Assembly (NCBI RefSeq): GCF_017873555.1
Contig: NZ_JAGGKE010000001.1
Span: 124,001-188,000 of the forward strand
Length of the DNA stretch: 64,000 bases
DNA from: Halorubrum trapanicum
Lineage (GTDB): Archaea > Halobacteriota > Halobacteria > Halobacteriales > Haloferacaceae
Reading direction: 5' to 3'
This document shows, piece by piece, positions 2,642 to 25,192 of the stretch. A program made the position numbers and the translations under genes. The notes under the pieces are model-generated. The model saw only the letters and a list, made by a program, of their open reading frames with translations. It was not told the DNA's origin and ran no database searches. Each line of letters starts with the position of its first letter. Within the stretch, counting starts at the first letter, position 1.

Positions 2642-2691
2642 CCCTACCCTACTCGCTCACGGCTGACGCCGTTCGCTCCTTGAGGGTAGGG
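2642..2691 (-). repeat. Right-end hairpin of the IS605-type element, likely 3' part of the guide RNA
   Basis: The arms CCCTACCCT (2642-2650) and AGGGTAGGG (2683-2691) form a perfect 9-bp stem. The hairpin lies inside the last codons of tnpB and contains its TAG stop. In this family TnpA recognises such hairpins. RNAs that guide TnpB (omega-RNA) are known to come from the 3' end of tnpB and the right end, so a guide-RNA scaffold here is expected from family knowledge but is not shown directly. Confidence 0.7.
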
Positions 2692-3893
2692 CTTCCTGTT
2701 TCCACGACGCGCTTTGCAGGAACAACCTCAGTTCCCGTAGGGAGCGCAGTCTTCACAGGCGTTGATTCGGAGTCTCCCACTCCTACATCTTGTAGACCGC
2801 GAGAAAGGATGTTCCACGCCGCGTTCGCGTCCCTGTCCGCCTCGAACCCGCAGGCGGGACAGGAATGTTCACGGACCCACAGCGGCTTCTCTGTCGAGAC
2901 GCCGCACGCCGCACACTCTTTCGTCGTCCCTCTCGGGTTGACCGCCACGAAGTGCGTTCCTTCACGGTCGCACTTGTATTCGAGCAACGAGAGAAACGTT
3001 CGCCAGGCGGCAGACGCCGTGTTTCGGCTGTTCGACGGACTTTCCATCATCCCCTTCACGTTCAGGTCTTCGACCGCCACGAGGTCGTACTCCCGAGCGT
3101 AGTACGCCGAGAGCTTGTGGAGAAAGTCGCGGCGTTTCCGTCGGAGGTCGGCGTGACACTCCGCGACCCGCCGCCGTTGCTTCTCCCAATTGTTCGACCC
3201 GTGTTCCTTCCGTGAGAGGGACCCCTGTTCGCGTTCCAGACGGTCCCGTTCGTCCGAGAGGTCGAGCGACCCGACGGCGGTCCCGTCGGTGTCGTGGGCG
3301 TACTTGAGAATTCCCACGTCAATGCCGACGCACCGCTCGGGATTCTCAGGCGGTTCGGGCGGTTCACGGTCTATTTCGACTCCGAACGTGGCGAACCACT
3401 CGCCCGTCGGTTCCTTCTTGATCGTGACCTGTTTGAGCGTCGCGTCGTCAGGGATGGCGCGGTGGAGCCGAATCGGGATGTCCGCGAGTTTCGAGAGGGA
3501 CAGCACAGCCTGACCGCCCTTCTTGTCGAGCTTGAAGCCAGACTGGCTGTACGTGAAACTGCGGAACTCCCGTGGCGGCTTCCACTTGAGTTGACCGACG
3601 CCGTAGCCGTTCTCCTTGAGCGCGGAGAGTCCTTTGAGGTTGTCAAACAGGCGTTCCACGACGGTTTGGAGCACCTTCGAGTACACGTCGGAGAGGCCAT
3701 CCCACCACTGCTTGAGGTCGGGGAGTTCCGACCGAAGCGTGGTCATGGACGGCAGTTCGCCGTGTTCGTCTTGGTACTCGTTGAGGCGGTAGAGCGTGTG
3801 GTTGTAGAGTTGCCGACAAATATCGCGGTGGCGGTCCAACTCCTTGCGGTGGGCGTCGGACGGCTTGAGGCGGTACTTGTAGGCGTAGTACAT
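2649..3893 (-). CDS. tnpB: TnpB, RNA-guided nuclease of the IS605-type element
   Basis: A 414-residue TnpB if the ATG at 3893 is used (MYYAYKYRLKPSDAHRK); longer versions would run back into tnpA. The RuvC-like catalytic acids are visible: Asp in VGIDVGILKYA, Glu in VAVEDLNVKGM and Asp in ADRDANAAWN. The zinc finger reads CAACG followed by CPACGFEADRD. The helix-turn-helix-like N-terminus (RLKPSDAHRKELDRHRDICR) is also typical. The tnpA stop and tnpB start overlap as TGATG, which indicates translational coupling. No frameshift or missing active-site residue is seen. Confidence 0.93.
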   Translation of the reverse strand: MYYAYKYRLKPSDAHRKELDRHRDICRQLYNHTLYRLNEYQDEHGELPSMTTLRSELPDLKQWWDGLSDVYSKVLQTVVERLFDNLKGLSALKENGYGVGQLKWKPPREFRSFTYSQSGFKLDKKGGQAVLSLSKLADIPIRLHRAIPDDATLKQVTIKKEPTGEWFATFGVEIDREPPEPPENPERCVGIDVGILKYAHDTDGTAVGSLDLSDERDRLEREQGSLSRKEHGSNNWEKQRRRVAECHADLRRKRRDFLHKLSAYYAREYDLVAVEDLNVKGMMESPSNSRNTASAAWRTFLSLLEYKCDREGTHFVAVNPRGTTKECAACGVSTEKPLWVREHSCPACGFEADRDANAAWNILSRGLQDVGVGDSESTPVKTALPTGTEVVPAKRVVETGSPTLKERTASAVSE

Positions 3894-4300
3894 CAGCTCT
3901 CCCGCTGGTCTTCGACATACTGTTTCAACACATCCAGCGACACCTGCCCCGTCGAGATAAGACAGTACGAGTCGTTCCAGAACGAGTCGCCCCACAGTTC
4001 GGTCTTCAGTTCATCCTCGTACTCGTTTCGGATACGGCGAGCAGTCGCCCCCTTTACCGTGTTGATGAACTTCACGAGGTCCGTGGTTGGTTTCGCTCGG
4101 AACAGGATGTGAACGTGGTCGTCCTCTCCGTCGAGGTTCGTCAGTTCGACGCCGTAGTTGTCCGTGAACCCGCTGATGACCCCGCGAATGAATTGGGTTC
4201 GCTCCTCGGTTAGCACCCCACGACGATACTTCGTGGTGAGTATCAGGTGGTAGTGTAGGGAGTACGTTGAATGCGCTCCCGAATCGAGGTCGTATTTCAT
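3893..4300 (-). CDS. tnpA: TnpA, Y1 (HUH) transposase of the IS200/IS605 family
   Basis: A 135-residue single-strand DNA transposase. The HUH metal site reads DHVHILFRAKPT and the catalytic tyrosine is in SYCLISTGQVSLDVLKQY. The start MKYDLDSGAHSTYSLHYH gives the usual family length; an upstream extension to 4411 would run into the left-end hairpin and is unlikely. It cuts and joins the element ends next to the hairpins at 4406-4450 and 2642-2691. Confidence 0.93.
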   Translation of the reverse strand: MKYDLDSGAHSTYSLHYHLILTTKYRRGVLTEERTQFIRGVISGFTDNYGVELTNLDGEDDHVHILFRAKPTTDLVKFINTVKGATARRIRNEYEDELKTELWGDSFWNDSYCLISTGQVSLDVLKQYVEDQRES

Positions 4301-4405
4301 TGGGTTCGTACTATTATACGTTACCCCAATAAAAAATGTTGCGACTACGTGGCCTGTGGGCCTGTAACCGTATTGCTGTATGAATAGGTGATGACGGCGC
4401 TGTAT

Positions 4406-4450
4406 CCCCACCCTACTCCGCTCCCTTCGGTCGCTCCGTTGAGGGTGGGG
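4406..4450 (-). repeat. Left-end hairpin of the IS605-type element
   Basis: A perfect 9-bp stem (CCCCACCCT at 4406-4414, AGGGTGGGG at 4442-4450) about 105 bases upstream of the tnpA start. The sequence between the arms resembles that of the right-end hairpin, as expected for TnpA recognition sites. Confidence 0.75.
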
Positions 4451-6263: not shown

Positions 6264-7502
6264 TTACGCCTCGTCAAACAACGTCTCGCCCTCGACCATG
6301 TGCTCCTCGACGGTGTCCATGTCGAGCGTGACGCCGAGACCGGGCTCCTCCGGCACCTCGATGTAACCGTCCTCGATGACGTCCTCCTCGACGAGGTCCT
6401 CCCACCAGCCCAGCTCGTAGGAGTGGTATTCGATCGCGAGCGAGTTCGGGATGGAGGTGCCGACGTGGGCCGCCGCCATCGTCGCGACCGGCGAGGCGAC
6501 GTTGTGCATCGCGACGGGGACGTAGTACTGGTTCGCCACGTCCGCGATCTTGCGGGTCTCGCGCATGCCGCCGACCTTCGGCAGGTCGGGCGCGACGATG
6601 TCGACCGCCTGGTTCTCGATGAGGCGGCGCAGTTCGGTGACGCGGTAGCGGTTCTCGCCGACCGTGATCGGCGTGGTCGTGTTCTTCGTGACCTCCTCCT
6701 GAACTTCGAGGTTCTCCGGCGGCACGGGGTCTTCGAGCCACCACACGTCGTACTCCTCGATGGCGTCCGCGAGGCGCTTCGCGGAGCCGCCCGAGAACGT
6801 CCAGTGGCAGTCGAAGGAGACGTCGGCCTTGTCCTTCACGCGCTCGGTGACCTTCTCGACGATCTCCGCCTTGTGACGGATCTCGCCGGGGCGGAGGTGG
6901 CGGTTCGCGCGGTCCTTCTCGAAGCCCGAGGGGACGTCGAGGTCGAACTTCAGGGCGTCGTAGCCCAGCTCGTCGACGACGCGCTCGGCCTCGTCCGCGC
7001 ACGCCTCGGGGTCCGCCTCCTCCTCGGTGTGGCAGTCGCAGTAGACGCGCATCTTGTCGCGGTACTTGCCGCCGAGCAGCTGGTAGGCGGGCACGTCGAG
7101 GATCTTGCCGGCGAGGTCGTGGAGCGCGACCTCGATGCCGGAGATGGCCGTGACGGTGACGCCCTCGACGGAGCCTTCGCCGGACATCTTCTGGATCAGG
7201 TGCTCGTAGAGGCGGTCGATGTCGAGCGGGTTCTCGCCGACGACGAACGGCTTCATGCGCTCGACGAGTTCTGGGACGCCGGCTCCCCAGTACGCCTCGC
7301 CGGTGCCGACGACGCCGGCGTCGGTGTAGACGCGGACGAGCGTCCACGGGAAGTTCCCGTCGACCATCGTCGTCTGAACGTCCGTGATCTCGACGTCGCG
7401 GCCGCCGCCGCGCGTCCCGGTAGTCCCCATCGTTTCGGCGGAGAGCTCCCGCATCGTGTACTCCGCGTTCGGGTCGTGGAGCGACTCGTAGTTTCGGCTC
7501 AT
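6264..7502 (-). CDS. Sugar-acid dehydratase of the enolase superfamily (gluconate/xylonate dehydratase type)
   Basis: A 412-residue member of the mandelate racemase/muconate lactonizing group. Visible are the capping domain (VRVYTDAGVVGTGEAYWG), the Lys-bearing strand (YDALKFDLDVP), and the metal ligands in SFDCHW, WLEDP and VGENR. The C-terminal VAMHN segment contributes the catalytic His side. Haloarchaeal proteins of this type dehydrate gluconate, galactonate or pentonates to 2-keto-3-deoxy acids; which one applies is not decided by sequence. I chose the ATG at 7502 (MSRNYESLHDPNAEYT) over 7517. A perfect 18-bp palindrome sits 23-40 bases upstream. Confidence 0.82.
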   Translation of the reverse strand: MSRNYESLHDPNAEYTMRELSAETMGTTGTRGGGRDVEITDVQTTMVDGNFPWTLVRVYTDAGVVGTGEAYWGAGVPELVERMKPFVVGENPLDIDRLYEHLIQKMSGEGSVEGVTVTAISGIEVALHDLAGKILDVPAYQLLGGKYRDKMRVYCDCHTEEEADPEACADEAERVVDELGYDALKFDLDVPSGFEKDRANRHLRPGEIRHKAEIVEKVTERVKDKADVSFDCHWTFSGGSAKRLADAIEEYDVWWLEDPVPPENLEVQEEVTKNTTTPITVGENRYRVTELRRLIENQAVDIVAPDLPKVGGMRETRKIADVANQYYVPVAMHNVASPVATMAAAHVGTSIPNSLAIEYHSYELGWWEDLVEEDVIEDGYIEVPEEPGLGVTLDMDTVEEHMVEGETLFDEA

Positions 7503-7524
7503 ACGACCCCGATTCATTCGGGAC

Positions 7525-7542
7525 AGGGTAAACGTTTACCCT
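7525..7542. promoter_or_regulatory. Perfect 18-bp palindrome, candidate operator of the dehydratase gene
   Basis: AGGGTAAACGTTTACCCT is identical to its own reverse complement. It lies 23 to 40 bases upstream of the dehydratase ATG at 7502, where the TATA box and TFB site of a leaderless haloarchaeal gene would be. A repressor bound here would block transcription initiation. The divergent TRAM gene starts 58 bases away on the other side. Confidence 0.65.
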
Positions 7543-7600
7543 CGTACGCGGCACGCTCCGAACAGATGGCTTTTCATCCCCGTACGCGCAATGGGCGGCC

Positions 7601-8083
7601 ATGGTCGAAATCACTGATTCTCTCGCGTGTCTGTACACGGGCCGAGTGGAGTCTCGGGGCGACGAGTACGTCGTCACCGTTCCCGCCTCTGAGATCGAAC
7701 ACGGTAGCGTCAGCGTCGGCGAGACGTACCGGATCGCCGTCCTGGACCGCGCCGGACCCGAGGAGGGGGAGTCGGCGTCTAACGCAGACGGCGGCGCGTC
7801 CGTTCCCGACGGCGACGGTGCCTCGACCGGAACCCCGTCCGAGGACGGGAAACGCCCCACCTCTCGCGGTGCCGCCGGCGCCGTCCAGCCCGATCCGCCC
7901 GTCTCGGAGGGCGAGGTCCGCGACGTGACGATCGAGACGCTCGGCGACAAAGGCGACGGGATCGCGAAGATCGAACGCGGCTACGTCGTCATCGTCCCCG
8001 ACGCCGAACCCGGCGAGGAGCCGACCGTCGAGATCACGAGCGTCCGCGAGAACGTCTCGTTCGCGAACGTCGTCGAAGAGTAG
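7601..8083 (+). CDS. TRAM-domain RNA-binding protein
   Basis: A 160-residue protein with two small domains and a linker. The N-terminal part (about residues 1-50, SLACLYTGRVESRGDEYVVT) resembles a compact beta domain seen in haloarchaeal TRAM proteins. A low-complexity linker follows (about 51-100). The C-terminal TRAM domain is clear (VTIETLGDKGDGIAKIERGY and SVRENVSFANVV). Stand-alone TRAM proteins in archaea act as RNA chaperones. The gene is divergent from the sugar-acid dehydratase gene, and functional linkage is not implied. Confidence 0.85.
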   Translation: MVEITDSLACLYTGRVESRGDEYVVTVPASEIEHGSVSVGETYRIAVLDRAGPEEGESASNADGGASVPDGDGASTGTPSEDGKRPTSRGAAGAVQPDPPVSEGEVRDVTIETLGDKGDGIAKIERGYVVIVPDAEPGEEPTVEITSVRENVSFANVVEE

Positions 8084-17298: not shown

Positions 17299-17325
17299 CT
17301 CCAACACGTAGTGAAAGGATTGCTA

Positions 17326-17335
17326 AGTAATTACT
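17326..17335. promoter_or_regulatory. Palindrome AGTAATTACT, candidate TrmB-type operator
   Basis: A perfect 10-bp palindrome 28-37 bases upstream of the trehalase ATG, at the expected TATA position of a leaderless gene and in the 140-base divergent space with the ABC ATPase gene. TTACT half-sites recur at 22490-22530 between the binding-protein and sulfatase genes. The cluster's own TrmB regulator is the natural candidate to bind. Confidence 0.4.
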
Positions 17336-17403
17336 GAAATAGCCGGGAAGAGAACGAATAGCGCGCACCGGCGGCCGTCCTCTTATCCATGGTCCATGAT
17401 TAA

Positions 17404-17410
17404 TTATAAG
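17404..17410 (+). promoter_or_regulatory. TATA box of the sugar ABC transporter operon
   Basis: TTATAAG lies about 30 bases before the ATG at 17440, as in leaderless haloarchaeal transcripts. Just upstream, TCCATG occurs twice in close succession (about 17387-17399), a possible regulator site. Confidence 0.5.
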
Positions 17411-17439
17411 TGTAATAAATGAATATCGGCGGATAGTCG

Positions 17440-22496: not shown

Positions 22497-22571
22497 CAAA
22501 TTTGCTTATTAATTACCGCTATAGTTACTAATCACAATCGAACTGACGCGAAACGCGATCACGGCTATTTA
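22497..22571. promoter_or_regulatory. AT-rich divergent promoter between binding protein and sulfatase
   Basis: The stretch contains TTTGCTTATTAA (22501-22512), a likely TATA region for the minus-strand binding protein, and CTATTTATG (about 22564-22572), about 30 bases before the sulfatase ATG. Between them is the near-palindrome TAGTTACTA (22522-22530), with TTACT half-sites shared with the trehalase promoter. Confidence 0.45.
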
Positions 22572-24094: not shown

Positions 24095-25192
24095 ATGGAC
24101 ACCGAGGAACTCCTGGAGACGCTCCAGGCGGCGGATCTCTCTTACTATCAGGCGAACGCGTACGTCACGCTGCTCGAACTGGGGACCGCGTCCGCGACCG
24201 AAGTCGCGCAGGCCAGCGACGTGCCCGACGCGCGGATCTACGACGTGCTCCGCGACCTCGACGACTTCGGCTACGTGGAGCTGTACGAACAGGAGACGTT
24301 CCAGGCGCGCGCGACCGACCCGGAGACGATCGTCTCCGGGCTCACCGACCGCGCGAGCGCGCTGGAGTCGGCGGCCGCGGAGATCGAGGAGCGCTACGAG
24401 CGACCGACGCTGGACACCCAGACGGTCAGCATCGTCAAGCGGTTCGACACCGTGCTCGAGGCGGCCCGGACGTTCGTCCGCGACGCGGACACCCAGGTCC
24501 ACGCGACGCTCACCCGCGACCAGTTCGACGCGCTGCGAGGCGACCTGGCCGACGCCCGCGACCGCGGCGTGACGGTCAACGTCACGCTCCTCGCCCGCGA
24601 CGGCGACGAACCGCTCACGGACGCCGACTACGAGGGAGCCGTGAGCGTCGCGCACCGCCTCTCTCGACCCGCCCCGTTCGTGCTCACCTCCGACCTCCGG
24701 CGCACGGCGTTCGCGCCGAACCCAGCCGCCGTCGAGGACTACGGTCTCATCCTCCGCAACCGGTCGTTCACGTACGTCTTCTTCTGGCACTTCCTGCTTT
24801 TCATGTGGCTCCCCTCGACCGTCGCGTACGAGGCCGACGCGGCGGGTCCGAAGCGGTACGCCGACATCCGACAGTTCCTGCTGGAGAACCGCGATCGGAT
24901 CCACCGAGACGAGCCGCTCCGGGTCGAGATCGAGGGCCGTGAGACCGACAGCGACCGGTCCGTGACCCTCTCCGGCGAGGTCGTCGACGCCGAACACGTC
25001 TCGGAGAGCGACGGCGACGCCGACCGCGCCCCGAGCGTGATGGCGCTGACGGGCACCGCCTCCATGGTCGTCGACGACGGCGAGAAGCGGTGGACCGTCG
25101 GCGGCTGGGGGGCGACCTACGAGGACGTGGAGGCGAACCGGATCCGCGTGACGGACGCGCCGACCGCGACCGAGGCCGAGCCGGCGGAGTGA
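24095..25192 (+). CDS. TrmB-family sugar-responsive transcriptional regulator
   Basis: A 365-residue TrmB protein. The N-terminal winged helix is LSYYQANAYVTLLELGTASATEVAQASDVPDARIYDVLRDL in outline (about residues 14-55), a coiled linker follows (about 85-105), and the C-terminal half is the effector domain of the family (about 110-365). TrmB proteins control sugar transport and central carbon genes and release DNA on binding sugars. Its place at the end of the trehalase/ABC/sulfatase block makes it the likely local regulator. Confidence 0.87.
   Translation: MDTEELLETLQAADLSYYQANAYVTLLELGTASATEVAQASDVPDARIYDVLRDLDDFGYVELYEQETFQARATDPETIVSGLTDRASALESAAAEIEERYERPTLDTQTVSIVKRFDTVLEAARTFVRDADTQVHATLTRDQFDALRGDLADARDRGVTVNVTLLARDGDEPLTDADYEGAVSVAHRLSRPAPFVLTSDLRRTAFAPNPAAVEDYGLILRNRSFTYVFFWHFLLFMWLPSTVAYEADAAGPKRYADIRQFLLENRDRIHRDEPLRVEIEGRETDSDRSVTLSGEVVDAEHVSESDGDADRAPSVMALTGTASMVVDDGEKRWTVGGWGATYEDVEANRIRVTDAPTATEAEPAE

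Follow-up and report, generated by a model that had tools for sequence, protein, structure and literature searches.

The window analysed here, a stretch of 64,000 nucleotides from Halorubrum trapanicum, carries on its minus strand a gene for a sugar-acid dehydratase of 412 aa (P0001, 6264–7502), in which the enolase-superfamily Pfam domains MR_MLE_N and MR_MLE_C are present. The best NCBIfam model for this protein, that of the bifunctional D-gluconate/D-galactonate dehydratase, gave 214.4 bits, which is below its cut-off of 750 and leaves the subfamily unassigned. Orthologues sharing 95–99% identity are found in many named Halorubrum genomes, and dehydratase matches, paralogues counted, in 113 of 119 genomes of the family (E ≤ 1e-60). 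In the genome G002, the gene is clustered with genes for a DHDPS-family aldolase and a PfkB-family kinase, the group faces trmB, and a ROK-family kinase gene is nearby. Because of its conservation through haloarchaea and of this neighbourhood (aldolase, PfkB kinase, trmB), P0001 is probably gad, with gluconate dehydratase as its predicted activity, and we take it to be the equivalent of the Haloferax gad gene. The aligned start codon is an ATG in 69 of the 80 named gad orthologues. An in-frame ATG located 15 bp further upstream (7517) is a possible start, but it differs from the aligned start of the relatives.

A gene for a TRAM-domain protein (PF01938) is divergently oriented on the plus strand, at 7601–8083. 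A scan of positions 7400–7700 for sigma-70 promoters and terminators found nothing. Elsewhere in the window, an IS200/IS605-type element was observed on the minus strand (2649–4411), with a Y1 transposase (3893–4411) and a TnpB (OrfB) gene (2649–3896).

Direct reading of positions 7525–7542 confirmed a perfect palindrome of 18 bp, AGGGTAAACGTTTACCCT, fully self-complementary and assigned to neither strand, which a sequence-only reading of this DNA had singled out. It spans -40 to -23 from the dehydratase start codon (7502), the gene being on the minus strand, and its centre, given earlier as some 32 bases before the start codon, is at about -31.5. That it lies over the promoter of this sugar-acid dehydratase gene is supported as well. 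In contrast, the statement that a perfect 18-bp palindrome is very unlikely to occur there by chance was too strong. The window contains two perfect palindromes that reach 18 bp or more, the other being one of 22 bp at 24319–24340, whereas 40 dinucleotide-preserving shuffles of the window had a mean of 1.5, with at least one in 72.5% of the shuffles. The palindrome alone is therefore unsurprising, and what is unusual is only that it lies in a promoter. The 22-bp palindrome (CCCGGAGACGATCGTCTCCGGG) falls inside the gene coding for a TrmB-family paralogue (24095–25192), and the rate is about what chance expects.

The sequence-only reading had proposed that the palindrome perhaps marks a regulon, and had likened its core to the operators of LacI- or IclR-like regulators. 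With up to three mismatches allowed, a search of the 3.08-Mb genome gave no second copy of the 18-mer. Among 52 genomes of the genus, 12 contain its 12-bp core, GTAAACGTTTAC, in one copy each and always 24–25 bp before the same dehydratase gene; the 40 others lack it. Allowing two mismatches, the 12-mer was found in 33 places, versus 9 for the reversed pattern, but only the gad site was perfect, and many of the near-matches resemble coding sequence, as judged by eye. A regulon marked by the palindrome was rejected on the uniqueness of the 18-mer in the genome and on the confinement of the 12-mer to gad in a minority of congeners.

Conservation of the dyad was inspected in 81 gad promoters, consisting of 80 named orthologous loci and the locus of H. 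trapanicum itself. The perfect 18-mer was found in two of them. A Halorubrum group of 29 promoters was picked by hand (the own locus, L047–L071, L075, L088 and L093); it takes in one record labelled Halobellus captivus as well as MAG records, and Halorubrum sp. CBA1125 (L078) was placed with the other 52 promoters. Within this group the palindrome was perfect in two promoters, and the outer G-C pairs 2, 3 and 4 were complementary in 3, 8 and 7 of the 29, respectively. Pairs 5–7 (TAA/TTA) were invariant, and hence uninformative on symmetry. Over the nine pairs of the palindrome, not a single compensatory change was seen in the 29 promoters. Absence elsewhere in the genome and at orthologous genes had been named beforehand as what would speak against an operator; the first holds for the whole remainder of the genome, and the second very nearly.

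These data bear on the possibility that a dyad-binding repressor uses the palindrome as a genuine operator, acquired in a single Halorubrum subclade and acting on gad alone. The GG..CC arms are kept in all 12 genomes that have GTAAACGTTTAC, while flanking bases vary, and we take AAACGTTT to resemble the cores of LacI-family operators. Such an operator is nevertheless very unlikely, given the lack of compensatory changes, the absence of a second genomic copy, the 40 congeners devoid of the 12-mer, and the supply of similar palindromes by chance. A LacI- or IclR-like reader is left unsupported by a single-copy site whose dyad shows no compensation.

Alignment of the promoters pointed to other conserved parts. 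Sequences were anchored on TTTAC, and the 13 promoters of 81 without this anchor were left out, so that the conservation of TTTAC is partly by construction. Over the 68 anchored promoters, the conserved columns were AAA, TTTAC and CGA[AG]T-N-AA; the dyad was not among them. In the promoter of H. trapanicum, counted from the start codon, AAA occupies -35 to -33, and positions -30 to -27 read TTTA. Positions of BRE and TATA in leaderless haloarchaeal promoters have been described (PMC4158304, PMC10817205, PMC4983044), with CGAAA as the BRE consensus and adenines at -34/-33 (PMC4983044, PMC4158304), and 72% of the protein-coding transcripts of Hfx. volcanii are reported to be leaderless (PMC4983044). 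In a haloarchaeal core promoter the TATA box is expected near -27. The spacing of AAA and TTTA fits BRE and TATA as placed in leaderless promoters, which indicates that the palindrome core is BRE plus TATA. TAAACG (7533–7538, minus strand), in the left arm of the palindrome core, is the probable BRE, its A's being those at -35 to -33, and TTTACC (7527–7532, minus strand, -30 to -25) the probable TATA box. The gad promoter would be leaderless, with a putative transcription start at or near the start codon. The sole difference from an ordinary haloarchaeal leaderless core promoter is the exact reverse complementarity of its BRE and TATA. The palindrome thus looks like a chance symmetry of ordinary promoter parts: BRE and TATA box would happen to be reverse complements, and a few lineage-specific bases would have been added. 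This calls for caution more generally, as AT-rich palindromes over archaeal promoters can arise from BRE and TATA sequences that are near reverse complements.

The conserved columns reach beyond the palindrome. TTTAC and CGA[A/G]T-N-AA together form a 20-bp inverted element, TTTACy-N8-ArTnAA, whose spacing is that of the haloarchaeal TrmB motif. At gad of H. trapanicum this TrmB-like element, TTTACCCTGTCCCGAATGAA, occupies 7513–7532 on the minus strand (-30 to -11). Its left half-site is the probable TATA box, and its right half-site, CCGAATGAA (7513–7521, minus strand), in which CGA[AG]T-N-AA is kept over the 68 promoters, lies outside the palindrome, so that the element and the palindrome overlap in the right arm of the latter only. 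Of the strong repressor site predicted by the sequence-only reading, one part stands, in that a repressor site probably overlaps the promoter; the equation of that site with the palindrome is not supported.

The significance of the element was estimated with a matrix trained on 30 trmB, 10 gapII and 9 of 10 ppsA loci of the genus set (one start codon was not found), gad being excluded and a second PPDK_N locus of the own genome (L216) left out; the training sites were chosen by their likeness to TTACT-N8-AGTWA, which makes the matrix mildly circular. The own gad site had a p of 0.007 against 400 shuffles and ranked third among 63,981 positions of the window. At p≤0.05, the matrix matched 68 of the 81 promoters: 39 of the 52 others and all 29 of the Halorubrum group, where the site was always at -30/-29 and 27 promoters reached p≤0.01. 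As a control, gapI promoters gave no match (0 of 10). Pyruvate kinase promoters were meant as a second negative control, but 9 of 10 matched; this control is not clean, because pykA is repressed by TrmB in Hbt. salinarum (PMC10817205). In the genus, gapII and ppsA promoters have conserved elements at the same spacing, and TACT-N7/8-GAGT is present in 26 of 30 trmB promoters of the family. The own ppsA promoter (L215) has a 22-bp perfect palindrome, CACAACTCGGTACCGAGTTGTG, at the place where congeneric ppsA promoters have a TrmB-like element.

Could the conserved block be a core promoter only, with CGA[A/G]T-N-AA a basal element (promoter-proximal or -10) and nothing regulatory? AAA and TTTA are at the correct distances, and a WW element at -10 has been proposed for haloarchaea (PMC4983044). 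However, CGA[AG]T is much more specific than WW, its spacing from TTTAC is constant over many genera, and gapI promoters lack it, which makes a purely basal role improbable. The divergent TRAM gene probably does not share the gad element, because the element persists in relatives having a different upstream flank. Bidirectional use of the palindrome for this gene was likewise rejected by inference; a T-rich box of its own was read directly at 7571–7574 on the plus strand (-30 to -27), and its position suggests that it probably serves the TRAM gene.

The element was missing in 13 of the 81 gad promoters. Seven of these (L103, L109, L110, L117, L118, L120 and L123) belong to Haloarcula or its relatives. 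Their lack of the element agrees with the ChIP-seq list of Har. hispanica, in which gdh is included and gad is not.

The TrmB motif published for Hbt. salinarum is TACT-N7/8-GAGTA (PMC3794607, PMC4158304). Exact matches to it were present in 17 of the 81 gad promoters, versus a mean of 0.02 in mononucleotide shuffles. The gad element of Haloferax, TTTACTAACGTCCGAGTAAA, contains the published motif. The own gad site reads TACC-N7-GAATG and does not match it exactly; relative to the strict motif, the Halorubrum gad half-sites are degenerate, with TACC for TACT and AATGA for AGTWA. No genome-wide excess of the exact motif was found in the own genome (17 occurrences, versus 22 for the reversed pattern), and there was little in a Haloferax-like genome (34 versus 27). 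The exact motif was rejected as a genome-wide regulon signal on these counts.

The genome of H. trapanicum encodes a TrmB orthologue, P0002, which scored 607.9 bits with NF047392 (cut-off 500). In three genomes (G002, G030 and G050), gad and trmB are divergent and about 1 kb apart, and the gad promoter of G002 holds TTACTACGCGTGTAGTAA. A palindromic sequence, TACTCGGAACCGAGTGA, was also observed in G002 between the divergent gad-side genes and trmB (L257, G002:C1:773500-781500). In the window, the top matrix scores (at 22509 and 17400) were those of AT-rich elements with TAATTA words. One of these elements (17319–17419) separates a trehalase gene from a MalK-like ABC transporter gene, and the other (22497–22532) precedes a gene for a solute-binding protein. 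The TAATTA elements are likely the operators of the local TrmB paralogue (24095–25192), which suggests a trehalose-type regulon.

Taken together, the most probable explanation is a core promoter overlapped by a TrmB-type repressor site, which would keep the gluconate dehydratase gene silent in the absence of glucose. The functional control element would be the minus-strand inverted element of 20 bp (7532 down to 7513), from the TATA box to -11, and TrmB, a sugar-sensing regulator, is predicted to read it. When glucose is absent, TrmB lying over the TATA box to -11 would block TBP, TFB or RNA polymerase, and gluconate dehydratase, an enzyme of the semi-phosphorylative Entner-Doudoroff pathway, would be off during gluconeogenesis. 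When glucose is present, TrmB would release the site and gad would be transcribed. TrmB is reported to bind its sites without glucose and to release them with glucose, and sites overlapping the BRE are associated with repression, upstream sites with activation (PMC10817205). With the putative transcription start, the gad element at -30 to -11 has the BRE/TATA overlap of repressed genes; since it covers the TATA box to -11, repression without glucose is predicted. In the literature searched, no paper was found that links TrmB to gluconate dehydratase through such a site.

The downstream element might instead belong to another regulator, most plausibly GfcR, a PurR-like activator of sugar catabolism in haloarchaea, with TrmB uninvolved. 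The gad gene is reportedly a direct target of GfcR, and CCGAAT resembles half of a PurBox. In Hfx. volcanii, GfcR activates the degradation of glucose and fructose, and both gapI and pyk are described as its targets (PMC11519228). However, gapI promoters do not have the element (0 of 10), whereas those of trmB, gapII and ppsA do, at the same spacing, and an activator site over the TATA box to -11 would be unusual. Moreover, a different shared word, CTCGGTCGG, is found directly upstream of the BRE in the gad of Haloferax and in gapI, and is a likelier candidate for GfcR. We therefore consider it unlikely that the downstream element is a GfcR site. Among the gapI promoters of the genus (L186–L195), several have a word similar to CTCGGTCGG just upstream of TATA/BRE, as do gad promoters of Haloferax (L072–L076); these words are candidate GfcR sites.

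The proposed TrmB site at gad resembles in several respects the operators of known TrmB systems, those of Halobacterium salinarum (VNG1451C) and Haloarcula hispanica (TrmBHar): an inverted arrangement of the TACT...AGTA type with a spacing of 7–8 bp, a position over BRE/TATA like that seen at repressed genes, and a TrmB orthologue encoded in the genome. It differs from them by the degeneracy of its half-sites in Halorubrum (TACC, AATGA). It is also comparable to the TrmB site at malE of Pyrococcus furiosus, a palindromic operator over BRE/TATA that blocks recruitment of RNA polymerase (PMC4158304), but there the spacing is TACT-N3-AGTA, whereas 8 bp separate TACY from ARTN here. For Har. hispanica, the 15 TrmB sites in Table 2 of PMC10817205 exclude gad, and gdh is bound instead. 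The same source reports no direct repression of glycolytic enzymes by TrmB in this species, unlike in Hbt. salinarum, and proposes a rewiring of the regulon (PMC10817205).

A broader scheme joining these observations can be put forward tentatively, and we rate it as somewhat less than even. TrmB would repress gad directly in many haloarchaea, by an operator overlying the TATA box. Haloarcula and its relatives would have lost this connection at gad and have it at glucose dehydrogenase instead. The palindrome would have been made, in one subclade of Halorubrum, by the rise of a mirrored TTTACC half-site (GGTAAA) beside the operator, perhaps as a second, overlapping site. If this is true, a single sugar-responsive switch has shifted by one step within one pathway, between gad and glucose dehydrogenase. 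A TrmB-type site at gad in Halorubrum, Haloferax and many genera, but not in Haloarcula, would make the rewiring testable at one promoter. The gad element belongs to ordinary biology, and its rewiring aspect is open to test.
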